A DNA stretch of 64,000 nucleotides, taken from the NCBI GenBank assembly GCA_943736015.1, contig OX031059.1, forward strand, positions 46,077,159-46,141,158. Direction: 5' to 3'. The position numbers and the translations under genes were made by a program. The stretch comes from Tridacna crocea (lineage: Eukaryota; Mollusca; Bivalvia; Cardiida; Cardiidae). The notes under the pieces are model-generated. The model made no database searches. It was not told the origin of the DNA and saw nothing but the letters and a program-made list of their open reading frames with translations. The first letter of the stretch is position 1. Each line of letters begins with the position of its first letter. Positions 4,589 to 64,000 of the stretch are shown in pieces.

Positions 4589-4694
4589 GTAGCCACCTAG
4601 CCACCTAAGGGAAGGGATAAGAAAAGCTGACCTCATATTACAGGCTGCTGCTAAACACACACTGGTGCTTTCTTCCAGTTCAGAATTATTTTTG

Positions 4695-4855
4695 GTTCAT
4701 GCTCTATGAGAGGGGGGCTTATTGCATAAGCAAAAAAACTATCGATCCAGGTCTGTCTTCTCAGTAGGCGCAGGCTGACCTGGTTCATGCCTTTCTGCTA
4801 TTGGTCAATCTTCTGCTTTTCAAAGAACCAGTGTAGCTTATGATTCATTCAGTTG
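4695..4855 (-). repeat. Family F fragment
   Basis: It contains the F end (GCTCTATGAGAGGGGGGCTT), the ATCGATCCAGG block, GCGCAGGCTGACCTG and the flank GCTATTGGTCAAT seen in other F copies. Half the palindrome has been rearranged. Confidence 0.65.
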
Positions 4856-4902
4856 TTCGACAAAATATAGTGTCTGTGGATGTATAATTATGATTGGCTT
4901 GC

Positions 4903-5152
4903 ACCATGCGAAAATGGGCATTCGGACATCTGCGTAAAGTGTCGTCTCGGATCAGCCTGCGCTGTCCGCGCAGGCTAATCCGAGACAATACTTTCCGTTT
5001 TGATGCAATTTTCTGTTTTGTAGATGTCTACTGAAGGACAAAATCTAATGTAGTCGTAAAATGCCGTCTCGGATTAGCCTGCGCGGACTGCGCAGGCTGA
5101 TCCGAGACGACACTTTACGCAGATGTTCGAATGCCCCTTTTCGTGTTTTGCA
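4903..5152. mobile_element. Family E double-palindrome element
   Basis: The ends are inverted (CGAAAA.GGGCATTCGGACAT and complement). Each is followed by GCGTAAAGTGTCGTCTCGGAT and a palindrome turning at CTGCGC-N5-GCGCAG. Between the two palindromes lies a conserved spacer (TTTCTGTTTTG..., GTCTACTGAAGGACAAAATCTA). There is no coding capacity; apparent frames here are palindrome artefacts. Confidence 0.85.
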
Positions 5153-5836
5153 CTTCAATTATCATGCGGCAGAGATGCATTAAAACCGCATTTCCCAGAA
5201 TATGACGTAATTTACATGGAGAAATCCCAAGTAAAATACAGTCCAATTGCCCTCATTACAAAATTCATGTCCAGGAAAAAAAACATTCATTTTTCAAAAT
5301 TCATGTCGATTTTGAAGACTATTTTTCTGATTGGATTAGATATTTTGTCTCGGTCATTCAGAGTAAGAGTCTTTAGAACCATATTTTTTCTATCTGTCAG
5401 GAAGTATTCACAGAATAAAGGGATATTATGGACACACAATGCTATTAATGGTAATGAAGTGATATTCTAAGTTACATCGGGTCGATACACGTTTGAACTA
5501 GAATGAATCCGGACCATTTTACGAGTTGGCATTAATGATCAAGATCTATCAGAATTCAATCCGCTGGCTTCATATCTAATTTATGTGGACAGTGGACATA
5601 AAACACAACAACAAAAAATCATTGGATTTTGATGTTTCGTGTCAAGTAGAAGTACCGGAAGATACTGCACGCGCGTCTCGAAAGGATCTCGCGAGAATGC
5701 ATGAGCGAGTGGCAGGTATTTCCTGTCAAAGTGTCCGTGGACATGTGGAACTGACATTTTACATGGATGACATGTAGTCGCATGGTTATTGATGGCCTTT
5801 CAAAAAAATGACAACAGGAAAACAAAGGTTAGAGTG

Positions 5837-6838: not shown

Positions 6839-7065
6839 CTAACCTCTTTTAGCGCTACAGCCGAAAAAGCTGGAGGTTTTTGAGGACGGTATAGATCCTA
6901 GATCAGACTGCACAGAACGTGCACAGAACGTGCAGTCTGATCTAGGATCTATGCTGTCCTCTTGTTTAGTCAAGCTAATGAAATGAAAATCTTTCTGTAA
7001 CAGTGGATTTAATTTTCAGCTGCTAAAAGATATGTGTTCATTTTGTCCGGCCCTAAAAGAGTCAA
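6839..7065. mobile_element. Family C element, copy 1
   Basis: The ends are inverted (CCTCTTTTAGCGCTACAGCC on the left, GGCCCTAAAAGAG on the right) with degraded TTAA at both. The interior is a B-type palindrome (ATCCTAGATCAGACTGCAC and complement) in which ACAGAACGTGC is duplicated at the turn. It shares its ends with 8145-8358. Confidence 0.7.
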
Positions 7066-11176: not shown

Positions 11177-11411
11177 TTAACCCTTTGCCAAACAATCCCT
11201 GGTTTTTACGGGCCTGAAAATAAAGCCTTTTGAAAACATTGTGGGAATAGGAGAAAATGCTGGTAACCAGCATTTTCTCCTTTTCCCACAATGTTTTCTA
11301 TCCGTCTGGAAGCAAATTTTGATTTTTGACTTGCGTTTGTTTTTGTTGTCTGCAAGCGCTTTCAATTTGGACCAGGCTAGAATTTTGTTGTTTGAGGATG
11401 GTTTAGATTAA
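11177..11411 (+). mobile_element. Family A element, 'GGTTTTTACG' subtype
   Basis: TTAACCCTTTGCCAAACAATC and CCTGGTTTTTACGG mark the subtype also seen at 25797, 57816 and 61836. The right end is diverged (TTGTTGTTTGAGGATGG), so its limit is approximate. Confidence 0.8.
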
Positions 11412-11451
11412 CTTTTAAGCTGTTGGTAAAAGCACCAACGGAACTACTTCA

Positions 11452-11482
11452 TTTTTTATTTATTTATTTATTTATTTATTTT
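11452..11482 (+). repeat. (TTTA)n microsatellite
   Basis: About seven TTTA units inside the B copy. Confidence 0.9.
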
Positions 11483-11619
11483 GGGGAGGTGTAAAAATAT
11501 CTCCTTACCGGACAGTGTAGATCCAAGATCAGACTGCACAGAATGTACAGCCTGATCTTGTATTTACACTGTCCGCAAAAGGTCAGTAAGTAGCACTAAG
11601 CAGCGTTAGGGCTAGTTAA

Positions 11620-12385: not shown

Positions 12386-12604
12386 TTATAGTCCTTTACC
12401 AGGTAATCCCCAGTCTGAACGGGAAATAAGCTATTGGAAAACATTGCTGGAAAAGGAGAAAATGCTGGTTAACCAGCATTTTCTCCTTTTCCTACAATGC
12501 TTTCTGCCATTTCAAAGACAAGCCTAATTCTTTGAGTCAGACTTTCCGTGAGGTCTATAAATGCCTTCTATATGGACAGGTCTAAAACGTTGACTTCATG
12601 TTAA
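12386..12604 (+). mobile_element. Family A element, left of a head-to-tail pair
   Basis: Degraded left end (AGTCCTTTACCAGGTAATCCC); palindrome GCTGGAAAAGGAG with an extra T at the turn. Its right end runs into the TTAA that starts the next A copy, so the two share one TTAA. Confidence 0.75.
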
Positions 12605-12829
12605 CCCATTACCACACAATCCCTACTTTTGACGCCCCTGAGAAAGAAGCCTTTTGAAAACACTGTGGGAAAAGGAGAAAATGCTGGTAACCAGCATTTT
12701 CTCCTTTTCCCACAGTGTTTTCTACCCTTCCCAGAACAAATTTCAATTTTTCAGTCATCTTTATTTTGTCGTCTGCAAATGCTTTCAATTTGGACCAGTC
12801 TAAAATGTTCTCGTGTGGTAAAGAGTTAA
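12601..12829 (+). mobile_element. Family A element, full length (229 bp)
   Basis: Clean TTAA at both ends and a perfect 67-bp palindrome (12656-12722) carrying the CACTGTGGG/CCCACAGTG variant in both arms. Close to the copy at 4360 along its whole length. Confidence 0.92.
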
Positions 12830-13080
12830 GGGTTAAAGCTGACTGCCATCGCGGAATCTATAAGAGTTAGATTAGGTCGACAGCCTTATTTTCGCTCTGC
12901 AACTGAAGCAATTTGAATACATTGTGAGATTCTCCTCTGTGTATTTCTATCTTAATTTGGCCATCCATTAGGCGTAAAATTAGATTGGGCTTTCTCATAT
13001 ATAGGAAATAGCGTGGAATGGCCCCGTCATGACGTGAATAAAACGTTGCTAGATTTTTCTATCGCGTGCTCTGTTAGAGC

Positions 13081-19210: not shown

Positions 19211-19214
19211 TGAG

Positions 19215-19400
19215 CCCTGCTATGTGTAAAGGATGCTTAATGCATTTGCGAAAAAGTATCGATCCAGGACTGCGCAGGCTGATCTGGGCCGAAACCTTTC
19301 GCTATTGGTCAATTTTCTGTATTTTCTAGGACCAACCTACCTCAAGATTAAGTCGGTTGTAAAAGAAAAAGTAGCCATTATGACAATATAATTGTGTATC
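19215..19400 (-). repeat. Family F, partial copy
   Basis: GGATGCTTAATGCATTTGCG, AAAGTATCGATCCAGGACTG, CGCAGGCTGATCTGGGCCG and the TTTCGCTATTGGTCAATTTT flank. The outer end nearest 19400 is missing. Confidence 0.65.
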
Positions 19401-19427
19401 ACACAGTCGCATTTAACCCCCTCTTGC

Positions 19428-19735
19428 TAGAGCACGGCTCATGTAAATGCGTGATGCTCTGTAAAAAGGGAGCTTAATGCATATCCGTGATGTATGGTAA
19501 CCAAGTCATCACATATTTATGGATCCATAAAACTCCATATAAAAAATCCATATTTCTTTAAACAACTGACCGAAACCATAAGGTAGAATGACCCTTTGAC
19601 ATGCAGTCAGTTTAAAGAAAGAGAAAAGTTTCGGCCCATGTCAGCCTGCGCGGAATGCGCAGGCTGGCATGGGTCGATACTTTTCTCAAAGGCATTAAGC
19701 CCCCTTTTTCGTAGAGCATGACTCAGAAGCTGTCA
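19428..19735 (+). mobile_element. Family F element, complete copy
   Basis: Inverted ends (GAGCACGG.../GAGCATGACTC with AAGGGAGCTTAATGC and its complement). Internal blocks are GTCATCACATATTTATGGATC and TGACCCTTTGACATGCAG. The palindrome at 19621-19687 has 31-nt arms (28 of 31 paired) round GGAAT and turns at CTGCGC/GCGCAG. Confidence 0.8.
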
Positions 19736-20427: not shown

Positions 20428-20868
20428 TTAACCCTTTGGCTGAAAAGCGCGACTTACTGACCTTTTGCGGACAGCGAAGATCAAGATCAGACTGCACAGA
20501 ACGTGTAGTCTGATCTTTGATCTACACTGTCCGATAAGCAGATATCATTTCCAAAAAACATAACCATGATATTGCAGTATTTGAATTTTTAACCCATTAC
20601 CACACAATCCCTACTTTTGACGCCTTCAGAAAAGAAGCCTCCAGAAAACATTGTGGGTAAAAGGAGAAAATGCTGGTAACCAGCATTTTCTCCTTTTCCC
20701 ACAATGTTTTCTACCGTTCACAAAACAAATTTCAAATTTTCAGTCACTTTTATTTTGTCGTCTGCAAATGCTTTCAATTTGGACAAGTCGAAAATGTTGT
20801 CGTTTGGTAATGAATTAAAATATCGGAGAGAGAAAATCATTTTAGTTATTTAGCAGGATAAAGTTTAA
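20428..20868. mobile_element. Family B element containing an A element
   Basis: The left end is TTAACCCTTTGGCTGAAAAG. The palindrome spans about 20470-20536 (GATCAAGATCAGACTGCAC and complement). The right end TTAGCAGGATAAAGTTTAA appears only after the A insert. Without the insert the element would be about 210 bp, the normal B size. Confidence 0.75.
20589..20818 (+). mobile_element. Family A element inside B
   Basis: TTAA at both ends. Palindrome complete apart from a T insertion in the left arm (GTGGGTAAAAGGAG). The host B arms lie on either side. Confidence 0.9.
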
Positions 20869-21010: not shown

Positions 21011-21452
21011 TGCATATAGCCGAAAATAAATGGACAAGTAGAGCATGTGTTATGAGGGATTGAAGGCAAACTAGTTCCTAAAAGCGTTGTCTTATTTTCT
21101 TACCTGAGTCTTATTGTGACGTTTGATTATCTATAATCGTCTGTCTTTTCAAATGACCTTTTTGATTTCGAATATATTTTAGTATGATACGAAATGCATG
21201 TATATGCATAATTATTAGTAAAGTCTCTTGCTAAACAAAATTTTAGATCTTTTCAAGATCTTGTGATAAAATCGGTTCATAAATGAGGTCCTACTGACTT
21301 TCAGGAATAGACTTACTTTGTGATAAAATGGCCGAAGTACCGTTGGACAGAACATTAGAAGCAGTTCAACGAAATCAAACAAACAAGGCACTTGACAGCA
21401 TACTATTGTCTTTTCAGTCATGACTTTGTCACCCTGCTTAGGCCTTTATGGC

Positions 21453-21707
21453 CTGCAGCACGCGAAAAGGGACATTCGGACGTTTGCGTAAAGTGTCCTT
21501 TCGGATCAGCTTTGTGCTGTCCGCTCAGGCTAATCCGAGACGATACTGTCCGTTTTTTATGTAATTTTCTGTTTTACACGTGTTTACTGTGACACAAAAT
21601 CTAATATAGTCGTAAAGTGTCGTCTCGGATTAGCCTGCGCGGAATGCGCAGGCTAATCCGAGACGACATTTTACGCAAATGTCCGAATGCCCCTCAAGCT
21701 CGTGTGA
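21453..21707. mobile_element. Family E double-palindrome element
   Basis: GCACGCGAAAAGGGACATTC and the opposite end ...AATGCCCCTCAAGCTCGTG. The right palindrome (CTCGGATTAGCCTGCGC-GGAAT-complement) is almost perfect; the left has decayed round TTTGTGCTGTCC. Confidence 0.85.
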
Positions 21708-22116
21708 TACGAACCACATCACCTTATATCACTTGCAATGGTATTTCATTGTTTGAAAAGAAACTGGTATGATTATATCATGTTAATTCTCACAGGAAAA
21801 GAAACGTTTAAAACATCTGTCTGAAATATTAAAAGCATTACCAACCAAAACTGACTAGATTCTACTTCTTCACTTCTTCGGGAAGAAGGTGATCAGCCGT
21901 GTCTCGCTTTCGAGCAATGTATACTTGTCACCAGAGACAAAATATATCGATGACCTTTGCAAATGATCACAATTTTATTCCTGGGTAAAGAGAGAAAAGG
22001 GGGCTGGTATATTAGATTTATACGGATTGCACGTCAGGGTCTCTCTGGGGGGATGTTTCGGGATTTGTCATTGATTTTTTTTTTATCATTTTGGTCCGCC
22101 TTCTCCAAGTCATCCA
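21708..22116. other. No recognised feature
   Basis: No repeat match. The frame 21957-22262 runs into the next A copy and is not gene-like. Confidence 0.45.
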
Positions 22117-22694: not shown

Positions 22695-22956
22695 CAATAA
22701 CAAAAATAAATACAACAATAACAATAAAATGTTATGGTAAACCATTAAGGATCATCTTTCAGAAAAAAAAACTAATGTCTAAAAACATTAAGGTCTTTAA
22801 TTATTAACATTTTATACTTCTAGCATCTTCTCGGCAAAGTCTGTGCTTCGGACATTTTGAATCTCCAGTACTACAGAAAAAACATTGAAGTTCTGTTGTA
22901 GACTTTTGCTTTTTGTTTTTATATGCAAAAAGCTTAGTATAGCGAGTAAAATATGA

Positions 22957-23207
22957 CCTACAACACGCGAAAAGGGGCTTTCGGACGTTTGCGTAAAGCG
23001 TCGTTTCGGCATAGCCTGCGCAGTCCGCGCAGGCTATGCCGAAACGACGCTTTACGCTCTTATGTAATGTTCTTTTTTGCACAAGTCTACAGTAGCACAA
23101 AATATTACGTAGTCGTAAAATGTCGTCCCGGATTAACCTGCGCGGACCTCGAGACAGCTCTCCACGCAAATGTCCGAATGACCCTTTTGGCGTGTTACAG
23201 GCCATAT
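22957..23207. mobile_element. Family E element with a perfect variant palindrome
   Basis: The left palindrome (22991-23057) has perfect 31-nt arms round AGTCC. It carries TTTCGGCATAG where other E copies have CTCGGATTAG, and both arms carry the change. The right palindrome is partly deleted. Confidence 0.88.
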
Positions 23208-23780
23208 TATGTGCAGCTTTCTCTTTGTAAATTCAAGCAAAAAATAATGACCAAGGAGTTTGTAGAAAATATTTAAATAATCCAAACAATAAATATATTT
23301 TTTTAAAAAAAAGGTACACGGCCAAAAGTGGACGTGGAAAAAATTATAATTATCTACAGCCTTCATTTTGGTCTCATCATTCAGTACTGCGGAAAATAAA
23401 AACTTGACCGCATTTACCTGTTTTTCCTCATTTTTTTCATTTTGTTGAAAAACGGAATTTTTAAATAGGTATATGTTTCAATATTTAAATTCAAATATGT
23501 TTTAAGATTTAAATTTAATTCCAATCATTCTCGAAAACAGAAATTATATTAAACATTTGTACGGACACACTTCAGTTTCGCATCGAGAGATGATCACTAG
23601 CCTTAACGGATGCCACTTAACTTCGTCTGAGAGCCGCACAGCATACCATGACAGCTACTTGAACGTTTTAACTCATTTAGCTGATTCCGAAATCAAATAA
23701 GGTTGTTCGAATTATACTTGATTCGAAACATGTTAAATTATCAAACTGTACAAGAAAAGGATCATGCCCTATCATATTAT
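23208..23780. other. No recognised feature
   Basis: AT-rich spacer between an E element and the Tc1-like copy. Confidence 0.45.
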
Positions 23781-25226: not shown

Positions 25227-25455
25227 TTAACTCTTTACCCCATAAGGCATTTCTATGGTATCTCTAACTGACCCTAAATAACATCAAGGATGAAGCCGTT
25301 TCTTATGTATATATTACACCTTTTGATAGTGTAGAAAACATTGTGGCAAAAGGTGAAATTGCTCGTCACGAGCAATTTCACCTTTTGCCACAATGTTTTC
25401 CAAAGGCTCCTAGAAGCAATGCGTAGAAATGAGTATCTATGGAGTAAAGGGTTAA
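25227..25455. mobile_element. Family A', divergent 229-bp sibling with perfect palindrome
   Basis: TTAACTCTTTACCCCATAAGG to TATGGAGTAAAGGGTTAA, exactly 229 bp. Subterminal sequences do not match the standard family. The palindrome at 25334-25400 is perfect (33-1-33) and differs from standard A at several positions in each arm: GTGGCAAAAGGTGAAATTGC turning at TCGTCACGA. The only copy of this type in the window. Confidence 0.85.
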
Positions 25456-25796
25456 CACAAACATAAGCTAAGGTACTAATTTGACTCCAACTGTAACTTA
25501 ACATTATCGATACGCGATAACCCCATCACACTAAGGTGCGACGGAACTATTTCCCATTTTATCGGATCTTGTTGCAAGTTTAGGTATAGAGTTTCGAAAA
25601 TGTTTTTGCTTCACACTCTGTGACTTGAAAATGTCCCCTGAATAATTTCGCCGTCCAATTACGTCAAATTGTTCGGTGACAAACTTAGAGAATCTTTAGG
25701 GCACAAGACAACAAATTCTACATAACAGCTTTCCTGTTAAGCTATACCATCAGTTTTCATCTGTCCGTTGTAGAAATAATCATTTCCGCTCATGCC

Positions 25797-27690: not shown

Positions 27691-27886
27691 GGGTCCGTAT
27701 TCACCAACCATTCTTAAGTACATTCCTTGTATTGTTCTTCAACATTTTCTAACTGTGAAAGTAAAGAACTTTTGATTGGCTAAACCAATTGGTTTAGCCA
27801 ATCAGAAGTTCTGTTACATTCACACTGACAAAATTATGAAGAATAAGACTAAGAATGTTCTGAAGAATGGTTGTGAATACGGACCC
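27691..27886. mobile_element. Family D foldback element (196 bp)
   Basis: The ends GGGTCCGTATTCACCAACCA and complement (...GTGAATACGGACCC) are terminal inverted repeats. The whole element is an imperfect palindrome, turning at GATTGGCTAAACCAATTGGTTT. No coding capacity. Target duplication is not clear. Confidence 0.85.
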
Positions 27887-28169
27887 GGGTGTTCTGTGCT
27901 ACGATGCACCCCTGGAAGTTGAAATTCGAGATTTTCGGTTCCTAGTCGTATCCGAATCATTGCAGTTTTACTGTAATTTGTATAATAGTGCTCGGAATTA
28001 AATGCTTTTATCTCCACGGCTTATCAATAAATCATGAGGACTATTTCAGGACAGTTCGCATAAAATTAAGATAACGTCAAAAGAAAAACAAAGAAACGTG
28101 CCCGTAAAAAATCCTTTGTATTATCTCTATCATCCTCTGAACACTGGGCACAATTTTTATTGCCTTTGC

Positions 28170-28250
28170 AAACAGTTTAAAACCAAGATCAGACTACACA
28201 TGTAATGAATGCACAAACTGATCTTGCATCCACACTTTCCTCAATTTTGT
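28170..28250. repeat. Family B palindrome relic
   Basis: AAACCAAGATCAGACTACAC and CACAAACTGATCTTGC with a longer spacer than usual (insertion at the turn). Confidence 0.5.
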
Positions 28251-28288
28251 GACATGTAATGGACAAGGCAGCATTTAAATTGGAATAT

Positions 28289-28470
28289 TTAACCCTTTAC
28301 CAGATGACAAAATTTTAGCCTTGTCCAATCTGAAAGCATTTGCAGAAGATAATTTCAGTATGGCTCAAATGGTGCAACTTTTCTTGACAGGGGAGAAAAC
28401 ATTGTGGGAAAAGGAGAAAATGCTGGTTACCAGGGGTGTCAAAAGTCGGGATTGTGTGGTAAAGAGTTAA
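28289..28470 (-). repeat. Family A element lacking the right arm (182 bp)
   Basis: TTAACCCTTTACCAGATGAC to GTGTGGTAAAGAGTTAA. The left arm is complete up to CTGGTTACCAG and then jumps directly to GGGTGTCAAAAGTCGGG, so the right arm was lost exactly after the turn. Confidence 0.85.
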
Positions 28471-28486
28471 GACGTCCTTACCCAGT

Positions 28487-28733
28487 TAAACCCCAATCCG
28501 GTACCACATGACACAGCTTTGAACTTGTCCATGTAAAGAATAATTGTAGACAACCAATTCACTTTTTTATTAAAAAGAAAAAATGAAACTTGCTTTTTAA
28601 ATATGTGGGAACAGAAAACCGTGACAAAAAGAGAAAATGGTAGTTGATAGAATTTTATTCTTTTTCAAAAACAATTTCGAAAGCCTCTTTTCCCGGGGGT
28701 TGTCGAAACACGGGTGTGTTTGATAAATGATCA
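28487..28733 (-). repeat. Degraded family A element
   Basis: GGTACCACATGACACAGC, GTGGGAACAGAAAACCGTG, GAGAAAATGGTAGTTGATAG and GGGTTGTCGAAACACGGG keep A order. Confidence 0.55.
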
Positions 28734-28809
28734 AGCTGCTAACTATATAATAATAAAGAATTATAGTCGAAGTTTAGAACCCAAATATTGTAAAGTAAAA
28801 ATTTCATTC

Positions 28810-28935
28810 CGTTCGAAAATTCTCACCGTCTCGGATAGTGTAAATCCAAGACCAAACTGTACATTCTGTGCAGTCTGATCTTGGTTTTACACAGTCTGCA
28901 ATAGACCATTGGGTCCCGGTGAGCAGTGTAGGGGT
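28810..28935. repeat. Family B element, partial
   Basis: CTCGGATAGTGTAAATCCAAG...CTGTACATTCTGTGCAGTC...CTTGGTTTTACACAG, then the right end (GGGTCCCGGTGAGCAGTG, GGGGTTA). Confidence 0.65.
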
Positions 28936-29390
28936 TACAAAATCTTCATTATCTGGTGTTGATCTCTCAGAGATTTTGAGATCAATTAGATCTAATTTGT
29001 GAAGTGTTTACAAAGGATTGGATGAACAATACACATTATGCACGGCTGCTACTTTGTATTATGCTAATGAGGTCATGAGGGTCTCAGTCAAGGGGGTGAA
29101 TGACCCCCCAGTTTCTTTGTGTCCCCTGCCTCATAATTTGACCCTAACTTTCTGTAACGGTTCTTTCCTCACCCCGCGGTCATTTCAGGCTATTTGTCAC
29201 TTTCAAATTCAATTACGTTTTAGACAAAGCGATATCAATGTTGCATGTCCTACCAAAGAATGTTTGAACCGGGGTTACTTTATTTTTTCTTTACAGGGAA
29301 GATCAGGATCAGACTGTCTCAATTTGATCCATATCGTTAACGATATACTTCTTCATTCTTAAGTGAGAGTGTATTTATTTGCACTCAAAC
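28936..29390. other. No recognised feature
   Basis: The 114-codon frame at 29018-29362 has no recognised domain and no repeat match. Confidence 0.4.
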
Positions 29391-29393
29391 AAT

Positions 29394-29664
29394 TGTGACC
29401 CATTACGCAGAAAAAGACCATCTGGGAATTCTGTACATCAATAAAATGAAAACAGATCAACGATATATAGTGCAGGTCGGTTTAAGTGGATTACTCAAAA
29501 ATGATTGTATAACAAGGTACTCTGACCACTTTTCATACAAAAATGTCGTTAAATCGAAAAGTGACAACCCTGGTCAGCCTGCGCAATTTGCGCCGTCTGA
29601 CCAGGCTGGACACTTTTCGCAGTTCTCAGAAGGTCCTTTTTTGAATGATGGGTCACAATTCTTT
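29394..29664. mobile_element. Family G element, copy 1
   Basis: Inverted ends (TGACCCATTACGCAGAAAAAG and TTGAATGATGGGTCA). The block ATCTGGGAATTCTGTACATC precedes a palindrome (GAAAAGTG.ACAACCCTGG...CCAGGCTGGACACTTTTC) turning at CTGCGC-AATTT-GCGCC. Slightly more worn than copy 2. Confidence 0.8.
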
Positions 29665-30141
29665 CAGTCCTCGTGTAAAAAGTCAAATTCATTTATTCGG
29701 TGGTAAAGGGCGTTACCAAAGTATTTGGATCCATATTGACCACTGATGAGTCCCCAATATCACTTTTGTTAGAACGAGGCTACAGTCCCGAATATCGACC
29801 GATATTTTACACGAAGACTACCGAAAGGCATCACAGATCTCCCTTATTCGCTCAAAGCTCAGCCTTTGTTTTGTTTCAATTAGTCTTAGTAAAAATGGCC
29901 TAAATATTTATGTTTATTTTAAATTCAAAATTAGTATGAAATAGATATGAAAAAGGGATAACTTAACGTGTTTTGGTACAATATTGAATTGAATTGGATT
30001 CGTACGTTGCAGTCAAATCTGAATTTTGGACTCTGGTTTCGCCTTGTCAGACTTGTAGACTGGTTCTGCAGTGCACCCATCCGACAGAATTCAGTATTGT
30101 GCTAAACATATTACTAAAATGTATGGAGGATATTTTTTTTT
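29665..30141. other. No recognised feature
   Basis: No family match and no gene-like frame. Confidence 0.45.
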
Positions 30142-32449: not shown

Positions 32450-33589
32450 CCCATGTCGTTGCTACCCTGGGATTCCCTGAAACATGATGGTTTCTAGCGT
32501 AATTTTGCCACAGAGAACCGGATTTCAAGTAAAATAGTTTTAAGATATTTCAGAACTATACAAGCGATCTTTAAACTTCGTGAAATCACTTCCGTGCGAC
32601 TTAAAATACTTTTTTTTTTCATTGATCTATTTATAGAAGACAAAAAATAAGATAAATGGGGAGATTACCAAGAAAAAAACAGTGCCCTTTTCCCAATATA
32701 TATTCAAAAAAAAAAAAGAATTACTAAGTGGGATAAGATTTCATCAACGTATGTTAATGGTCTTTTTCTATAATACAAATCAAGAGCTCAGTAGACTTGC
32801 CAAGCCCTTGTTTTACCGCTCTTCAAATCTAATTAAAAGCCAGGAGTAGAAATGCAGATGTAATGAATCTCGAAAAGTGAAGCCATGCAACAGTTAAGTA
32901 AAAGACTAGAAAGCTTTTAAATGAAGAGAGTGGAGCGACAAAAGATAGATAACGCAAACCGGAAATTGCAGATTCTATCAAATCTCGTGGTGCTAGATTG
33001 GATTTGTTCACTGCTCGAGACCCCTTCACTATGATTGATTTCAATTGTTAGATTGCTAATAAACCAAACCGCTTGATTTCTCTTGTCACGGAGCCGGAAT
33101 CTTAATTAATTTTCGAGATTGAAGAATTCGGCAAGATTGGAAATGGGTTCTGTGAGCCTATGTCAATTCCACGAACCTCTCCAAACATGACAGTCCGGTA
33201 ATTGAAACAGCCAAGGAGAATTCGAATAGTTTTTTGCCCCCCTTCCAAGTTCACATCATTCCATCATGATAGAATTGTCAACCACGTTTTTCTCCCTTGT
33301 GACATATTAATTCGACATTTACTATCATCCCAGTAGATACTGTTTCAGACATCATGACCATCTAGTACCAGTAACACCGACAAAAAATATTTGGAAGATA
33401 GGAAAATATATTTTTCGATGATGCGGTATACATTGTGGGGAAAAGGAGCAGCTGTATGTATCAAGCAATTGATTCTTTTATTGATCAACACTTTTCCAAA
33501 GGGTGTTGTCATCTATTGCTTAGTTGTAAAGAGTCTTATTTTCATAGTGATTGGAAATGACAACAAAGTTTCGAATGATTTTTTTTTAC
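32450..33589. other. No recognised feature
   Basis: 1.1 kb without a family match; several poly-A/T runs. No gene-like frame. Confidence 0.45.
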
Positions 33590-33674
33590 ATATCGTCGGT
33601 TTGCTTCCAAATCCTCGTAACTACAGCTTGTTACAAGCTGTAGTTACGAGGTTTTGGAAGCAAACCGACGATAT
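33590..33674. repeat. Family I palindrome, copy 1 (85 bp)
   Basis: 42-nt arms (ATATCGTCGGTTTGCTTCC...) round one centre base, one mismatch. It turns at CAGCTTGTTACAAGCTG. Sequence outside is unrelated to copy 2, so the palindrome itself appears to be the mobile unit. Confidence 0.85.
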
Positions 33675-33860
33675 ATAACTTTAATTGTACCAAATGCTCA
33701 TAGTAAGTGAGGTTTGATGGCGGTCGGTAGGAAAAGAAATCCCCTCTTCCAACAATAATGGTGTAGCTTAATGATTTGTGACCAAAAAAAACAAAATGAT
33801 TCTAATGAAACAAACATGAAGCGGAATAAAACGCACAAAGAGGACTTGAAATTGCTTTAA

Positions 33861-34229: not shown

Positions 34230-34458
34230 TTAACTCATTACCAAACGACAATATTTTAGGCTTGTCCAAATCGAAAGCATTTGCAGACGACAAGATAAAA
34301 GAAACTAAAAATTTAAAATTTGTTTTGTGAAGGGTAGAAAACATTGTAGGAAAAGGAGAAAATGCTGGTTACCAGCATTTTCTCCTTTTCCCACAATGTT
34401 TTCAAAAGGCTTCCATCTCAGGGCCGTAAAAACCAGGGATTGTTTGGTAAAGGGTTAA
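34230..34458 (-). mobile_element. Family A element, full length (229 bp)
   Basis: TTAACTCATTACCAAACGAC to TTTGGTAAAGGGTTAA; the far end is the 'AAAACCAGGGATTG' subtype. It abuts a B element at its right TTAA. Confidence 0.9.
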
Positions 34459-34658
34459 TCTGCTTAATACTAGTAAATCAAATGCAACTTTCAGACAGAT
34501 ATTAAGGATCCGATTACTACTTTTTCAAATTTAATAGGGGTATCACTTTATGGAACAGTGTACATCCAAAGATCATACTGCACGTTCTGTGCAGTCTGAT
34601 CTTGGATCTACACTGTCCGCAAAAGGTCAGTGAGTCGCCCATAGCAGCTTTAGGGTTA
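34455..34658. mobile_element. Family B element
   Basis: TTAATCTGCTTAATACTAG (left end, altered where it meets A), then the palindrome (GTGTACATCCAAAGATCATAC...CTGCACGTTCTGTGCAG... complement ending ACACTGTCCGC) and the right end GTGAGTCGCCCATAGCAGC TTTAGGG. Confidence 0.75.
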
Positions 34659-34899
34659 CTTCTCTCTCTCTTCTACTCTCTTCTAGTACCACACAATCAT
34701 ATCAATATGCTGCCAACATAAAATTTACATTTTCGGTTGGGATCAGGATAGAGTTTACTATTGTTACTGTTTTCCAACCGGAAGTTTGTTATTGTTACCG
34801 TGCCTGCAGGGAGATGATGTCTCATATTATGTGACTGAAGGCATAGGTTACCATCTAATTCGCTGTTTTGATACATTCTAATTTGCTGCTTCGGAAATT

Positions 34900-39100: not shown

Positions 39101-39249
39101 CATATCTAAAAATGTGAAAAGGAGCGCAATTTAGCTTATTTACCGGGTAAAGTATTATATACGAAAGTTAAAACATTTTCACCGCCGTCTGTTGCAACTG
39201 TTTTACGAAATGACTTGATGCAGCAATAGCTTTCAAGTAAAATTACAAA
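36177..39249. other. Largest stretch without a recognised element (3.1 kb)
   Basis: None of the repeat families appears here. Frames at 36883-37143 (+) and 37885-38166 (-) have no motif or splice context. Base composition resembles the flanks. It may be unique sequence or hold families with no second copy here. Confidence 0.45.
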
Positions 39250-39516
39250 TGTGACCCGTCACACAAAAAAAGGGGTCATCTGGGAATTCCGTACATTAAT
39301 TGGATGAAAACAGATCAACGATCGTGCAGATCAATTTAAGCTGATAGTTCAAAAATAATTGTATAACAATGTAGAATGACCACTTTTCATACAGAAAATA
39401 TCATAAAAGCGAAAAGTGTCAACCCTGGTCAGACTGCGCGAATTGCGCAGTCTGACCAGGGTTGACACTTTTCGCAGTTCCTAGACGGTCCCTTTTTAAG
39501 TGAAGGGTCACGAATG
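39250..39516. mobile_element. Family G element, copy 2, with perfect 31-5-31 palindrome
   Basis: Ends TGTGACCCGTCACACAAAAA and TTAAGTGAAGGGTCACG. The palindrome at 39409-39475 has perfect 31-nt arms (GCGAAAAGTGTCAACCCTGG..., turning at CTGCGC-GAATT-GCGCAG). Conserved left block ATCTGGGAATTCCGTACATT. No coding capacity. Confidence 0.88.
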
Positions 39517-39532
39517 CTTCATTTATCATTTT

Positions 39533-39753
39533 AGCTATGCTCTGGCAAAAGGGGGCTTAATGCATCTCCGTGATAGGTGATACCAGACAAGTCATCAAAT
39601 ACTTGTGGATCCATAAATAGCCACGTTTTTAACAATGGATTTAATCATGAGGTAGATCGGTCCTTGGACACACAGAAAACTGACCGGACTTCGCATGCTG
39701 GCCTGGGTCGATATTTTTCGCAATTGTGTTAAGCTCCCTTGTCACAGAGCATG
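39533..39753 (+). mobile_element. Family F element
   Basis: GCTATGCTCTGGCAAAAGGGG to CCCTTGTCACAGAGCATGAC. Contains GTGGATCCATAAATAGCC and CATGAGGTAGATCGG. The left palindrome arm is shortened: only GCATGCTGGCCTGGGTCGAT of the right side is clear. Confidence 0.75.
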
Positions 39754-39798
39754 ACTAATTTTTTTTTTAGGAGAAATTGTTTCAGTGAACGCCGTAGC

Positions 39799-40555: not shown

Positions 40556-40650
40556 TTCCAAAAACATCGACATTTTTTTCCAAGAATTAGATATTACTCA
40601 CCCGGAAAAGAGATAGGAGAAATTGTGACGAAGTAATGTATAATAACCTG

Positions 40651-40865
40651 TAGAATGGTGAGCGTGGCTCACTGACCTTTTGCGGACAGTGTAGATCAAG
40701 ATCAGACTGCATAGAATGTGCAGTCTGATCTTGGATCTATACTGTCCGATAAAAAAATGTTTTTTTCTAAAAAATGAATGTGAAAAAGCATCATTTGGGT
40801 TTATAGATCTATTTTCGACTTGAGAGGGATTTTTTTTAAAACTTATAAAGCAGGATAAGAGTTAA
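40651..40865. mobile_element. Family B element
   Basis: Reverse-order copy. GGCTCACTGACCTTTTGCGG leads into the palindrome (GACAGTGTAGATCAAGATC... turning at CTGCATAGAATGTGCAG) and the far end is AAAGCAGGATAAGAGTTAA. Confidence 0.8.
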
Positions 40866-41000
40866 TTGAAACCGTGACTCGTAAAGATGTCTGGCAGAAG
40901 TGCTCCGGATGTAATATAATTTTTTGTTTCCCGCGCTTACAGTCTAGCGATGACGCACGAATTCTAAACTTAGTTGCAGCACATTTCCTGTTCTCAGGAT

Positions 41001-41704: not shown

Positions 41705-41892
41705 AGCCCGTATTTACGAACCATTCTTAGTCCTATTCTCCAAAATTTTCTAAATTTGAAGGTAACACAACTTCTGATTGGCTATACCAAATGGTTTAGC
41801 CAATCAGAAGTTGTGTTACATTCGAATTTAGAAAATTCAGTAATATAAGACGGAAAACGGTCTTAAAAATTTGGTCGGTGAAAACTGGCCCT
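41705..41892. mobile_element. Family D foldback element
   Basis: GAGCCCGTATTTACGAACCAT at the left. The central palindrome ACACAACTTCTGATTGGCTA and complement turns at CCAAATGG. Right side TTTGGTCGGTGAAAACTGGCC is diverged. Confidence 0.8.
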
Positions 41893-42042
41893 GGTCCAGT
41901 AGGTGCTATTTATGACTACAAAATAATAAGTTGAGCATAACTCTGCAATGCCCACATTCTCTCCCTAGAGACGTCTAACACATTGGAAATTATACACATG
42001 TCATGAATTATGCAAGACCTAACAGACTGCCCAAACATGGTT

Positions 42043-42268
42043 TGCAGTATGCGAAAGGAGGCACTCGGATATTTGCGTAAAGCGTCGTCTCGAATCAGCC
42101 TACGCAGTCCGTGCAGGCTAATCCAAAACGGCTCTTTCCGTTTTTATATAATTTTCTGTTTTGCGCATGTCTACTGAAGGACAAAATCTATTGTAAACGT
42201 AAAGTGCTGTCCGAGACGACACTTTACGCAAATGACCGAATACCCCTTTTCGCGTATTGCAGGTCATT
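42043..42268. mobile_element. Family E element, second palindrome mostly deleted
   Basis: Ends GTATGCGAAAGGAGGCACTC and CCCCTTTTCGCGTATTGC. The left palindrome is worn (CGCAGTCCGTGCAGG). In the right one GTAAAGTGCTGTCCGAGACG shows loss of the turn and one arm. Confidence 0.8.
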
Positions 42269-42289
42269 CATAGTAAACATTACATGAAC

Positions 42290-42549
42290 AGTGCTCTGAC
42301 ACAAGGTGATTTAAAGCATCTTCATGATCCCTTATACTAGACAAGTCATCACACACATTTTGATCCATAAAGTCTATTTCGCCCTAGAACTAACTGAATC
42401 CTGAGGCAGACTGATCCTTTGACATACAGAAAATTGATCAATAGCTTTAAGTTTCGACACAAATTAGCCTATGAGGACTGCACTGGCAAGCGTGAGCCGA
42501 AACTCTTTGCAGATGCATTAGAACGCCTTTTCACGGAGCATGGCTCAAT
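42290..42549 (+). mobile_element. Family F element
   Basis: AGTGCTCTGACACAAGGTGA to CCTTTTCACGGAGCATGGCTC. Conserved internal blocks are AGACAAGTCATCACACAC and GATCCTTTGACATACAG. The palindrome turn is diverged (TATGAGGACTGCACTGGCAAG). The frame at 42419-42736 starts inside it and is not a gene. Confidence 0.75.
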
Positions 42550-43333: not shown

Positions 43334-43410
43334 CGTCGGTTTACTTCGAAAACCTCGTAACTACAGCTTGTTACAAGCTGTAGTTACGAGGTTTTCGAAG
43401 TAAACCGACG
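43334..43410. repeat. Family I palindrome, copy 2, perfect (77 bp)
   Basis: 38-nt arms with no mismatch round a single T (CGTCGGTTTACTTCGAAAAC... turning at CAGCTTGTTACAAGCTG). It differs from 33590-33674 at two positions that are changed in both arms. Confidence 0.9.
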
Positions 43411-44907: not shown

Positions 44908-44985
44908 ACTATTGTTAGGAAATTCTGACGGGGGCTAAACGATAGACGTCTTTATTATGCTACAAAGCACGGTCCAGACGCTGTG

Positions 44986-45183
44986 CACCCTTACCCTGTT
45001 AAATCGGTGAAATGAAACTTTCAGGCCTATATTTTGCCATTTCAAAGGCACTTCCGGGGGTAAAGATACCTTTTCATCGGACAGTGTAGATCCAAGATCA
45101 GACTGCACGTTCTGTGCAGTCTGATCTTGGATCTACACTGTCCGCAAAAGGTCCTCAACTCGCGCCTAGACGCCAAAGGGTTC
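44986..45183. mobile_element. Family B element with perfect 31-5-31 palindrome
   Basis: Left end CACCCTTACCCTGTTAAATC, ATGAAACTTTCAGGCCTAT and TTCAAAGGCACTTCC. The palindrome at 45078-45144 has perfect 31-nt arms (CGGACAGTGTAGATCCAAGA...) round GTTCT. The right end CTCGCGCCTAGACGCCAAAGG differs from other B copies. Confidence 0.85.
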
Positions 45184-45351
45184 ATGTGGGTGGTATAGAA
45201 ACAGAAACAAATGGTTGATGCACCGATTAGGGATTGGCTGGAGAAAGCATTTTGCATTGGTTGCGATATTAACGTAACTAAACGTTCAGAGAAATTTAAA
45301 GGACAATGTCATGATGTGGAATTAGTTTAAACTCGAAATTATAAAAAGGGA

Positions 45352-48000: not shown

Positions 48001-48183
48001 TTCTATCTCTGTTAGCCGAACTGCTGATCTAGGAATTAACCTATGTCTGTTCAACATATGTATGAAGCGACCAATTCTTTAAATCAAACCATGTTGATTT
48101 ACCATGTTGATTTTTTTTTTCAGTTTTTGTTTTATACATACATAACCAAACGAGCATTACTATGACCATCATGCCATAACTGG

Positions 48184-48446
48184 ACTGCAACACGCGAAAA
48201 GGAACATTCGGACATTTGCGTAAAAAGTGTCGTTTCGGATTACCCTGCACAATGAGCGCTGGCTACTCCGAATCGACTTTTTCCGTTTTTATGGTATTTT
48301 CTGTTATGCATTTATTCTACTATAACACAAAATGTAATATAGTCGTAAAGTGCCATCTCGAATCAGCCTGCGCCGATTGCGCAGGCTGATCCGAGACGAC
48401 AATTTACGCAAATGTCCGAATGCCCATTTTCGCGCGTTCCAAGCTA
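48184..48446. mobile_element. Family E double-palindrome element
   Basis: TGCAACACGCGAAAAGGAAC to TTCGCGCGTTCC. The right palindrome is good (GAATCAGCCTGCGC-CGATT-GCGCAGGCTGATCC); the left is badly worn. Confidence 0.82.
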
Positions 48447-49948
48447 TATAGATGTCTGCACAAGTTTGCAACCCCATATCTAAGTAAACTTTATAACTTT
48501 GATTTCTATAACAGCTCACTTTTGTGCATACAGGGACACGTCACTCTTGCAACACACATGTATACGCTAGTTCCATTCGGCTAACTTCGGATGATCTGTT
48601 GATCAAGTCCTTCGGCGTTATCACGTGGCTTGATATGCAGCTACACAGTACTCTTCTCCGGCTTACTTAGAAAGCAAACACAATACCTAATTTTCTGTGA
48701 GAGTCTTTCTAACATATTTCCCATGACAACCAGTTTGTACATTTATTTTCCAACTCGGTCTATCAGCTACCTTTGTATTTTTCAGCGACGGGTTACTTAT
48801 TACCGTGGCTGTTGTTGCCCATTCCTAAACGATTTACAGGGCGCCGCAGAGTAAGTGGTCGTATTTTAGATTGGAACGAGGTTAGATTCACTGAATCGGC
48901 CGAGTTTTGGAGATTGACATTAGCTCATGCGATCATTTCACACGTATACTCAATAATTACAATCTGACAAAAACGGACTTGAGATGTATGGATGCACCGG
49001 TCATCTTAGAGGATGATATCGTACAGCGAAACAAAGTTACTATTATTTAACTAGTCTTTGGTAATGCAAAAACGAAAACAAATCTTTTGGCATGTAGCAG
49101 AAAGCACCTTATCTGAACATCTGGAAAAAAAAAAACATCAAGTAAAATTTGTATCGCGTTTTCTCAAAAATTTTATTTGTAAATTTCAAACGAGTTATTT
49201 TTTTTTTCCTTCAGTCGTGTGTGTAAAGCTCTAGAGATTAATGCCTTATATGGAATCCATTGACGTCATAGGCTGAAAATTGTTCCATTCCAAAAAACGA
49301 AATTAGTCACGCTATCGCATAATTCGATTGCCGACTTCTAAAATGAGGTTTACTTACAGACAACGCGGATGATTTTATGGATCTGAAACTAAGTTTTGTT
49401 GCTGCAAGGTAAAAAAAAAAGGAGGTTTTTACAAAAACATATTTTTTATTCGCCCAAAAAAAAAAGTTTTCGACAAGCTGGCAGATAATAAGAAAATACA
49501 CATGCCTAAGAATAGAATGGCTTGCCTCCTTGCCTCTAGAATAAAATTTCTTACTCAGTCTAGCTTCATTTGCTATATAAGCTAAGACATTTACTCCGTA
49601 CTAATATCATGAAATTTTTTCAAATTAGAATTTATTTATTTCTATTCAAATCCTCAACTACAAGACCGGCATTCTGACTGAAAGAGGCGTTCTGGGAGAG
49701 TTAATCAGATGGTGTTTCGTCAACGTTGTTAAAAAAAAACTTACAGGCCAAACCACGAAATTAACTATATCTAATTGAATGAGGCGTTCTGTCAAGTGAT
49801 TGTCTTGGATTGAGAAGTATATGATATGTGTAACGTGCTCAGGGAATACTGGCCTATACTGTTCAGAACTTGGAGTCTTTGGGATCTTCTAAACAGTGTC
49901 AAAGTTTAGACAATCTTTGACAGCAGGAACTTTACTAGGCAGTAACTT
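48447..49948. other. No recognised feature
   Basis: 1.5 kb without a recognised element; AT-rich runs near 49120-49450. Small frames (48630-48967) overlap in two phases and show no motif. Confidence 0.42.
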
Positions 49949-50143
49949 GGTCCAGTATTCACCAAACATTCTTAAGAACGTACATAGTTTTGTTCTTCAA
50001 GATTTCAACAATGTGAAAGTAACAGAACTTCTGATTGGCTAAACCATTTGGTTTAGCCAATCAGAAGTTGTGTTATTTTCACATTGTTGAAATCTTGAAA
50101 AATTAGACTAAGAACTTTCTTGAGAATAGATGGTGAATACAAT
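49949..50143. mobile_element. Family D foldback element
   Basis: GTCCAGTATTCACCAAACATTC to GATGGTGAATAC. Central arms (ACAGAACTTCTGATTGGCTA) turn at CCATTTGG. Confidence 0.82.
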
Positions 50144-51984: not shown

Positions 51985-52350
51985 ACCCTCGCCGCTACTA
52001 AGCACGACTCGGGCGCTTTTGCGGACAGGTAAGGTCAATGTTTGGCTGCACACTACGTGCAGACAGGGCTCGTATTCACCAACCATTCTTGAGAATATTC
52101 TTAGTCTTATTCTCCAAGGTTTTCCAAATTTGTAAGTAACACAACTTCTGATTGGCTAAACCATTCGGTTTAGCCAATCAGAAGTTGTGTTACTTACAAA
52201 TGTAGAAAATTCTGGAGAATAAGACCAAGAACGTTCTTAAGAATGGTTGGTGAATACAGGCCCAGATCGTTGATCTACTTGTGCGATACCGTGTTTTCTT
52301 TCCGGTGAAATCAACTTTATAATCGCAATATTTGCGTTTTTAATATGGAC
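51985..52350. mobile_element. Family B element split by a D element
   Basis: TTAACCCTCGCCGCTACTAAG and GGGCGCTTTTGCGGACAGG lead to CTGCACACTACGTGCAGA at the palindrome turn, where D is inserted. After it, AGATCGTTGATCTAC, TGCGATACCG and GAAATCAACTTTATAATCGC continue B. Confidence 0.6.
52066..52263. mobile_element. Family D element inserted in a B palindrome (198 bp)
   Basis: GGGCTCGTATTCACCAACCA to GGTTGGTGAATACAGGCCC. The arms are among the best preserved for D: TTTGTAAGTAACACAACTTC..., 34 nt perfect round ATTC at the centre. Target duplication uncertain (AGA is on both sides but offset). Confidence 0.88.
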
Positions 52351-57180: not shown

Positions 57181-57393
57181 GAACTTCAAAGAACAACTAT
57201 TTTCAAAGAGGCGGAAAAAACGCCATGTTTGTGCAGCGATGGGATTATTAAATTTCCATTTTAAGATTGAGAAGGAAGTAAAAGCAAAATCTACAAGCAA
57301 CATTTTCTTTATTTGTTACATTTTGTAGTATTTTAAAGTGACAAGTGCGTGTCACAGAACCGAAACTTTTCATAGAAATCACAAATATTAATC

Positions 57394-57598
57394 ATCATTT
57401 ATTCAAATAAATGAAATAACACTTCCAGACCTATTGTATAAACTTGAATTCAGCTATTTCAATGGCACTTTAGGGGACAGATATTGCCTTATCGGACAGT
57501 TTAGATCTAAGATCAGACTGCACGTTCTGTGCATTCTGATCTTGATCTACATTGTTCGCAAAAGATCGGTGAGTCGCACATAGCAGCTTAAGGTTTTA
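57394..57598. mobile_element. Family B element
   Basis: AAATGAAATAACACTTCCAG, ATTTCAATGGCACTTTAGGGG and TTATCGGACAG lead to a palindrome turning at CTGCACGTTCTGTGCA. Right end GTGAGTCGCACATAGCAGC. TTAA sites not preserved. Confidence 0.75.
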
Positions 57599-62063: not shown

Positions 62064-62209
62064 AGGATCCGGAAGCGAATCACGAGAGGAGGTTGGTGGT
62101 CCTTTGGAACTACTCATTTCACTGCGCGAATACTGGTTATGGTCCCAAACATTGGCGGCAAACATTGAGAGTGGTGAGTATAACTTGTTAGCACTTTTTT
62201 TTTTCAAAA

Positions 62210-62399
62210 GGAATTGAGCTCTTTAGCCGATAGTGGAAACCCCAACTTTGCTTGTTCAAAGGTAATTTCTGGGGGGAAAATATGTCCTCACTGGACAGAG
62301 TAGATCAAAGATAAAACTGCACGTTCTTTGTTGTCTGATCTTGATCTACACTGTCGGCAAAAGTTCGATGAGTCCCGCTTAGCTCCCTAGAAAGGGTTA
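62210..62399. mobile_element. Family B element, worn
   Basis: TCTTTAGCCGATAGTGGAAACC, TTGTTCAAAGGTAATTTCTGG and CACTGGACAGAGTAGATCAAAG; turn CTGCACGTTCTTTGTTGTC; right end GATGAGTCCCGCTTAGC, then GGGTTAG. Confidence 0.7.
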
Positions 62400-62997: not shown

Positions 62998-63225
62998 TTA
63001 ACTCTTTACCAAACGACAAATTTTTAGACTTGTCCAAATTGAAAGCAGTTGCAGACGAGAAAATTAATGTGACTCACAAATTTAAATTTGTTTAAGGAAG
63101 GATTGAAAACATTGTAGGAAAAGGAGAAAATGTTTGTCACAAGCATTTTCTCTTTTTCCCACATGTTTTCAAAAGACTTCTTTCTCAGGGTCGTCAAAAG
63201 TAGGGATTGTGTGGTAATGGGTTAA
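62998..63225 (-). mobile_element. Family A element, full length (228 bp)
   Basis: TTAACTCTTTACCAAACGAC to GTGTGGTAATGGGTTAA. The turn is changed to TTTGTCACAAGC, with one arm base lost (CCCACATG). A B element starts at its right TTAA. Confidence 0.88.
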
Positions 63226-63436
63226 GCTGCCGTGCGCGTCTTGCTGAGCCTTTATGGACAGCGCAGATCAAGATCAGACTGCACAGAATGTGCAGTCTGA
63301 TCTTAGATCTAAGCTGTCAGATCAGGAGATGTTTTTTTTCATCCCAAAGGGTAAGTTTGAAATACCATTAGTCTATTCGAGTTTTTATTATTGGTTTGAA
63401 AGTTTTATGTGACATATTTAGCATGATAAGTGTTAA
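63222..63436. mobile_element. Family B element
   Basis: TTAAGCTGCCGTGCGCG, CTGAGCCTTTATGGACAGCG; palindrome GATCAAGATCAGACTGCAC-AGAAT-GTGCAGTCTGATCTTAGATC; far end TTTAGCATGATAAGTGTTAA. Confidence 0.8.
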
Positions 63437-63449
63437 AAATAATGTGATT

Positions 63450-63678
63450 TTAACCCATTACCACTCAATACCTACTTTTGACGCCCTTGAGAAAGATGCC
63501 TTTAGAAAACATTGTGGGAAAAGGAGAAAATGCTGGTAACCAGCATTTTCTCCTTTTCCCACAATGTTTTCTACCCTTTACAAATCAAATTTCAAATATT
63601 CAGTCACTTTTATTTTGTCGTCTGCAAATGCTTTCGATTTGGACAAACCTAAAATTTTGTCGTTTGGTAAAGACTTAA
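63450..63678 (+). mobile_element. Family A element, full length (229 bp)
   Basis: TTAACCCATTACCACTCAATAC to GTCGTTTGGTAAAGACTTAA, perfect 33-1-33 palindrome. It follows the previous B element by 13 bp. Confidence 0.92.
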
Positions 63679-64000
63679 ACGAGGTCCTGTCTTAAAGGTG
63701 GGTATTTAGAATTTTTACATCTCACCAAATTAAAAATTATATATATCACTGAAATTCATATGAAAAAAATAATACAAATCATCAATAATTAAAATTTATA
63801 AAATTACAAAAAAAAATCTTTTTTGATGGTATTCCCTTAAAAGGCTACGTAGCCTCTTAAGCTATTTTTAGATTTCGCGCCAAAAATCAATAAAGCATTG
63901 TGGGAATGTCAAGTGACTGGCACATGACTCATAACACTTATATTTTCTATCATTACAAACATTAACAATTATTTTCCATAATTTCTTCTTCGGACGCTAT
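63679..64000. other. No recognised feature
   Basis: AT-rich to the window end; contains the short inverted pair AAAAGGCTACG / GTAGCCTCTT at about 63840-63858. Confidence 0.4.

Follow-up and report, generated by a model that had tools for sequence, protein, structure and literature searches.

A 67-bp hairpin shared by four MITE-like repeat families in a 64-kb Tridacna crocea window, probably inherited from one ancestral module

Repeats similar to those described here are known from bivalve genomes. Of two MITE-like repeats at the haemoglobin genes of Lucina pectinata, consensus 1 is 210 bp long, has imperfect TIRs of 30 bp and contains an internal palindrome of 77 bp (96%); in addition, its region 124–190 gives an ungapped reverse-direction alignment of exactly 67 bp, the pattern expected of a palindrome, and consensus 2 holds a self-complementary stretch of 68 bp (74%) (PMC4732748, Table 1 and accompanying passages). 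The same passages report fragments of this kind in other molluscs and no target-site duplication for the Lucina element. Kolobok transposons use TTAA target sites and end in 5'-RR...YY-3', and the KolobokP group is rich in bivalves, according to the available part of another account (PMC9587614). The titles, abstract openings and passages searched described no 31-5-31 hairpin common to several MITE families, the available parts of two bivalve repeat papers (PMC10294476, PMC5139131) held no matching hairpin, and a literature word search for the hairpin letters gave a zebra mussel primer as its only useful result.

The window, that is the whole stretch of 64,000 nucleotides analysed here, contains four repeat families, B, E, F and G, to which the initial annotation had ascribed one palindrome design with arms of 31 nt, a spacer of 5 nt and a CTGCRC/GYGCAG apex. 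The coordinates, spacers and arm matches were confirmed, each palindrome being 67 bp long:

45078–45144, minus strand: B hairpin, 31-5-31, perfect (31/31), within a B element copy matched at 44960–45184 (minus)
22991–23057, plus strand: E hairpin 1, 31-5-31, perfect (31/31), in an E element at ~22947–23208 whose hairpin 2 is partly deleted
39409–39475, minus strand: G hairpin, 31-5-31, perfect (31/31), in a G element at ~39245–39544
19621–19687, minus strand: F hairpin, 28/31, 5-nt spacer, in an F element at ~19440–19730

The exact apex, CTGCRC-N5-GYGCAG, is found at 11 sites in the window against a shuffle mean of 0.01 (none of 100 shuffles reached 11), and with up to one mismatch at 23 sites against 0.04. 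When spacers of 2–9 nt were scanned with one apex mismatch allowed, 22 of the 23 hits had a 5-nt spacer and the last one was part of a copy with a duplicated apex (6908–6935), so that the hits represent 22 places. In this B hairpin (6878–6959) the apex carries an 11-bp duplication, which leads to a loop of 16 nt. Read from the TIR side, the loops are AGAAC or AGAAT in seven of eight B copies and ATTCT in one, AGTCC in three of six E hairpins, ATTCC in F, and AATTC and AAATT in two G copies.

A closer look at the arms showed a wider spread. Ungapped matching over 31 nt gave 31/31 at three of the 22 places, 24–29 at eight, 20–21 at two and 17 or fewer at nine. Five of these nine poorly matching places (20492, 34578, 40707, 57518 and 63279, all B copies) have arms one base unequal in length and, with one base omitted, match at 27, 19, 28, 26 and 26 of 31 positions, respectively, the value of 19 probably being still out of register. 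In the E alignment the TIR-side arm starts with GCG and the inner arm, in most copies, with ACG or TCG; the consensus stem comprises 30 positions with one to three internal mismatches, to which the copy picked in the initial annotation (E23016) is an exception. Given this E stem and the five unequal B copies, a 31-nt arm is not universal. The sharp 31-5-31 mode that had been anticipated thus holds for the spacer, whereas exact 31-31 pairing belongs to selected copies.

The four families had also been called unrelated, a description that the comparison of their arms contradicts. One representative arm per family was read from the TIR side over the 25 positions outside the apex, with 200,000 shuffles per pair. 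Identities were 16 for B–E, 14 for B–F, 17 for B–G, 16 for E–F, 18 for E–G and 18 for F–G (shuffle P from 0.0018 to <5e-6), those of B depending on the register used, which is that of the B copies lacking the extra base. All four families agree at ten of the 25 positions, and at least three of them agree at 21. Profile searches of the window pointed in the same direction: the E half-element profile matched G (E=1.4e-15 and 5.7e-13), F (1e-9) and one B copy at 45063–45150 (4.6e-4), and the G profile matched four B copies (1.2e-5 to 7.9e-4), while the profile derived from a single F copy matched E and G and no B copy in the window. In the register of the initial annotation the E, F and G arms match mutually, and single B and E arms agree at 6/25 positions (P=0.61); this low value and the different ends of B are what could speak for four unrelated families agreeing in length and apex by chance. 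As all six pairs match once the arms are in aligned register, and as the E and G profiles match B copies, chance convergence was rejected, and we regard its probability as negligible. Being relatives, and being borne by small repeats that resemble mobile elements, the four palindromes look as if their common design was inherited, and descent from one hairpin module, as had been proposed, is supported by the arm homology.

The ends give a divided picture. TIR alignments were related for E–F (P=0.001), E–G (P=0.002) and F–G (P=0.013), whereas no relation of the B TIR to those of E, F and G was detectable (P=0.12, 0.19 and 0.36). The statement of the initial annotation that the families differ in arm sequence and ends holds only in part, and a recruitment of different ends is possible for B as against E/F/G, with divergence of the ends as the alternative. 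The passage of a single hairpin cassette between transposons that differ in their ends (TTAACCC-type in B, AAAAGGGG-type in E/F/G) would account for homologous hairpins beside a B TIR that bears no detectable likeness to the others; but TIRs may have diverged past recognition and those of E/F/G are themselves related, and we hold such an exchange to be rather unlikely. For the further family A described below, the arm comparison with B gave P=0.012 and the terminal comparison P=0.07, and its arms gave 0.40 against E, 0.06 against G and 0.018 against F.

The reading that we favour, with a probability of roughly 0.8, is that B, E, F and G are MITE-type families of ~210–300 bp whose hairpin, ~67 bp long and lying beside a TIR, goes back to a single ancestral one. 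This hairpin would have been kept singly in B, F and G and at each end in E, and the common 31-5-31 size would be mainly a matter of inheritance and less probably that of a ruler. The repeats are short and present in many copies, and TIRs were seen in A, B, E, F and G. The longest stop-to-stop stretch in the window has 150 codons, and no transposase was found in the window, where a Pfam scan of 10 of the 61 stretches of at least 85 codons gave none above the curated cut-off.

E elements are arranged as TIR, hairpin, a centre of ~55 nt, hairpin and TIR, the TIRs being clear in four of five copies and weak in the copy at 21635, while F and G have terminal repeats, also apparent from their left/right terminal alignments, and a single hairpin adjoining one of them. 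Five E copies, seven aligned F copies and two G copies were counted in the 64 kb; further members are:

4887–5165: E element with two hairpins (4932–4998 and 5054–5120) and TIRs, apparently inserted in an F copy (nesting judged by eye from the flanks)
21448–21719: E element, better-kept hairpin at 21610–21676
42032–42272: E element, hairpin at 42075–42141
48175–48449: E element, hairpins near 48220–48286 and 48343–48409
29381–29675, plus strand: second G element, hairpin at 29554–29620 (25/31)

Elements of these three families adjoin or nest with gaps of ~20 nt or less at 4693–5165, 19211–19730, 39245–39757 and 42032–42547 (E apparently in F, F beside F, F beside G and F beside E), which suggests a preference for insertion at or in existing copies.

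B elements start near TTAACCCTT, with the hairpin ~36–40 nt in, and have a far end like AGCAGGRTAAGRGTTAA in about three readable copies. Twenty matches were obtained in the 64 kb, of which ten include the hairpin as well as flanks. The B matches, besides that at 44960–45184, include:

11370–11615, minus strand: B element match, hairpin at 11509–11575
20428–20662, plus strand: B element match with a nested A element (20586–20821) that has TTAA on both sides
28163–28304, plus strand: partial B element match, hairpin diverged
28697–28938, minus strand: B element match, hairpin at 28832–28898
34421–34659, minus strand: B element match, hairpin at 34553–34619
40644–40876, plus strand: B element match, hairpin at 40682–40748, arms of 31 and 32 nt
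57366–57598, minus strand: B element match, hairpin at 57493–57559
62186–62398, minus strand: B element match, hairpin diverged
63220–63458, plus strand: B element match, hairpin at 63254–63320

Owing to the nested A element, the right part of the match at 20428–20662 is A sequence. In five of the ten copies (11370–11615, 28163–28304, 28697–28938, 34421–34659 and 63220–63458) the inner end of B lies no more than 21 nt from one of the ends of an A element, and a sixth holds the nested one. Family A may insert at the TTAA of a B end, or the two families may on occasion be mobilised jointly.

Family A has a layout similar to that of the other four, in an element of ~237 bp whose ends are TTAA-like and which carries a 34-1-34 palindrome of its own, turning at CTGGT/ACCAG. 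Its 44 usable copies in the window (12598–12834, for example) are the most among the repeats profiled. Of 26 copies, 19 have TTAA on the left, 17 on the right and 12 on both sides; with TTAA excluded the consensus begins with CCC and ends with GAG, and individual copies vary. A second copy serves here as the example:

63447–63683, plus strand: family A element, ~237 bp, TTAA-like ends, 34-1-34 palindrome

Differences along A were counted for each copy against a consensus built without that copy. Over the 44 copies the hairpin showed 281 differences in 2992 positions (9%) and the flanks 1486 in 6464 (23%), the rate dropping at the hairpin edges and climbing again beyond them. The hairpin rate was the lower one in 42 of the 44 copies (P<0.001 in 15), with two exceptions. 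The ten B copies gave 71/665 for the hairpin and 438/1328 for the flanks, the hairpin being lower in 10/10, in a count that takes the nested A element as flank; with that copy left out the values were 62/599 (10%) and 392/1183 (33%), lower in 9/9. A second stretch near the far end of A is also more conserved than its surroundings. As the slowest-changing part of A and B elements, the hairpin is suggested, on divergence alone, to be needed for propagation in these two families. A structure that something measures, as the initial annotation had put it, is supported in part by this slow change, the exact length of 31 nt being at most a candidate for the measured quantity.

The distances between copies bear on when such a protection would act. 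Two A copies (57814 and 61833) have an unchanged hairpin between flanks that are 25–30% diverged, and three others (14293, 28492 and 58264) have lost it at similar flank divergence. Hairpin and flank distances are about equal in the two closest A pairs (0.043/0.049 and 0.074/0.068), as expected if protection acts during propagation, whereas the next-closest pairs, with flank distances of 0.086–0.103, are already at only 0.029–0.043 in the hairpin. Over 35 copies the median nearest-neighbour distance was 0.205 for the flank and 0.074 for the hairpin, which had the lower value in 31 of the 35 nearest pairs. From two equal pairs, and with repeat profiles that were seeded from visible palindromes, we infer that the hairpin is protected while the elements propagate and decays after insertion; given the next-closest pairs, there may be some protection after insertion as well.

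A different origin of the low hairpin divergence would be palindrome breakage and repair, in which template switching from arm to arm, or gene conversion among copies, would hold the arms equal and near consensus in the absence of any function. Across the families, 450 of 527 arm cells are matched, against 354.9 when the right arms are redealt among all 17 copies (0/5000 redeals reach 450). In 38 A copies, the two arms share a non-consensus base in 31 cells, where redealing gives 13.1 (0/5000), at least seven of the 31 coming from one outer subfamily position. Such an excess is what repair would produce, and it is joined by two single cases: the perfect E23016 hairpin carries a GGCATAG change on both arms that is absent from the other E arms compared, with the damaged hairpin 2 beside it, and the A copy 25321–25458 has four palindrome changes, each present on both arms as a complementary swap (G-C to C-G, A-T to T-A), and no one-arm change. 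The lower hairpin distances of the nearest A pairs would likewise fit. Within E, G and B, on the other hand, the excess of matched cells is weak (450 against 442.3 expected, 339/5000 reach), the hairpins of the A copies 14293, 28492 and 58264 have decayed freely, and arm-to-arm repair alone cannot hold separate copies to a single consensus. Because the arms change together, repair is a live rival for how they stay equal; as an account of the hairpin as a whole we find it improbable.

If the hairpin is needed for propagation, it would most simply serve as a DNA site for a transposase or host factor, in the form of two inverted binding sites or of an extruded cruciform, and would decay together with its surroundings after insertion. 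Granted the MITE reading, we place this DNA role at about even odds. An action as RNA, in which small RNAs of one uniform length would be cut from the stem and the arm and loop length thereby kept fixed, is the less likely of the two and, in our judgement, quite improbable. The perfect 31-bp stems in three families would suit such processing, but 5 nt is short for the loop of a Drosha substrate, the loop of family A is 1 nt, and no Rfam match was obtained in the 64 kb at gathering thresholds. Human mir-548 genes derive from MADE1, which is a MITE (PMC1784062), and this favours an RNA role; against it, a mollusc survey (PMC12479628) reports, in the passages available, having found nothing to show a dedicated endogenous siRNA pathway and few signs that long dsRNA is processed.

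A bolder form of the DNA role would take the hairpin as a long-lived exchangeable cis-module, its DNA recognised by one host or transposase factor, on which elements with unrelated ends, the TTAA-type B and the AAAAGGGG-type E/F/G, all depend to spread. We consider it doubtful, but if true the hairpin would for that reason be the most conserved part of each element. In a MITE one usually expects constraint on the terminal repeats; here an internal hairpin next to the terminal repeat changes most slowly in two families, A and B, and a hairpin is homologous in four families although one of them has different ends. Should this hold genome-wide, it would name a cis-element that something must recognise, and offer a way to find the agent that mobilises some of the window's commonest repeats. 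It is also a warning that equal palindrome length across families can mean descent.

Outside the window, searches for relatives gave, in viral contigs, five loci for one pattern and none for another, and at least 119 loci in prokaryote contigs. Among the 124 viral and prokaryote sites examined the best arms (28/31) match no family and the best family match is 12 of 21 outer positions; these sites were rejected as relatives and are read as chance palindromes. A tRNA search of the window gave nothing useful. Long palindromes with a TTGGCTAAACCA-type core, 48–186 bp in length, could be seen at 49955–50140, 52072–52257, 41744–41837 and 27765–27812 and are perhaps another foldback element family. 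Two further palindromes, at 33586–33678 and 43334–43410, have arms of 46 and 38 nt, a 1-nt spacer and the common core TAACTACAGCTTGT.

With regard to the described systems, MADE1 is a palindrome over the whole element, in contrast to the hairpin found here, which is one segment beside a terminal repeat. The likeness of MADE1/hsa-mir-548 lies in a MITE able to form a hairpin (PMC1784062). Kolobok shares the TTAA target sites with A, but the termini differ, the A and B consensus sequences starting with CC and ending with AG inside TTAA where the available account gives RR and YY (PMC9587614).

In comparison with piggyBac, A has TTAA followed by CCC at one end, and GAG or GGG before TTAA at the other. 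The ends of piggyBac are CCC...GGG. TTAA, the piggyBac target site according to the available part of PMC9587614, was found for A only, at both ends in 12 of 26 copies and on either side of the one nested in B; in difference to piggyBac, no TTAA was noted at the E/F/G ends and no transposase was seen.

A zebra mussel primer (contig JWHF01000913) matches the E arms at 18 of 23 positions, and the 12 best matches listed for the window all belong to E or F copies, with 11 in the register of the arms; the match is suggestive only, since the controls also reached 5 mismatches (1 of 100 resampled windows, and 1 of 7 other, 20-base, primers of the same table, elsewhere in the window). In the available part of its source it is published as a single-copy gene primer, which sets it apart from the repeats described here; this forward primer may lie within the arm of a repeat hairpin, with possible consequences for that assay (PMC5155230). 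The Lucina MITE-like repeat, likened to A, B, E, F and G through the published description in the passages available rather than letter by letter, is, as they are, a short element with TIRs and an internal palindrome (PMC4732748).
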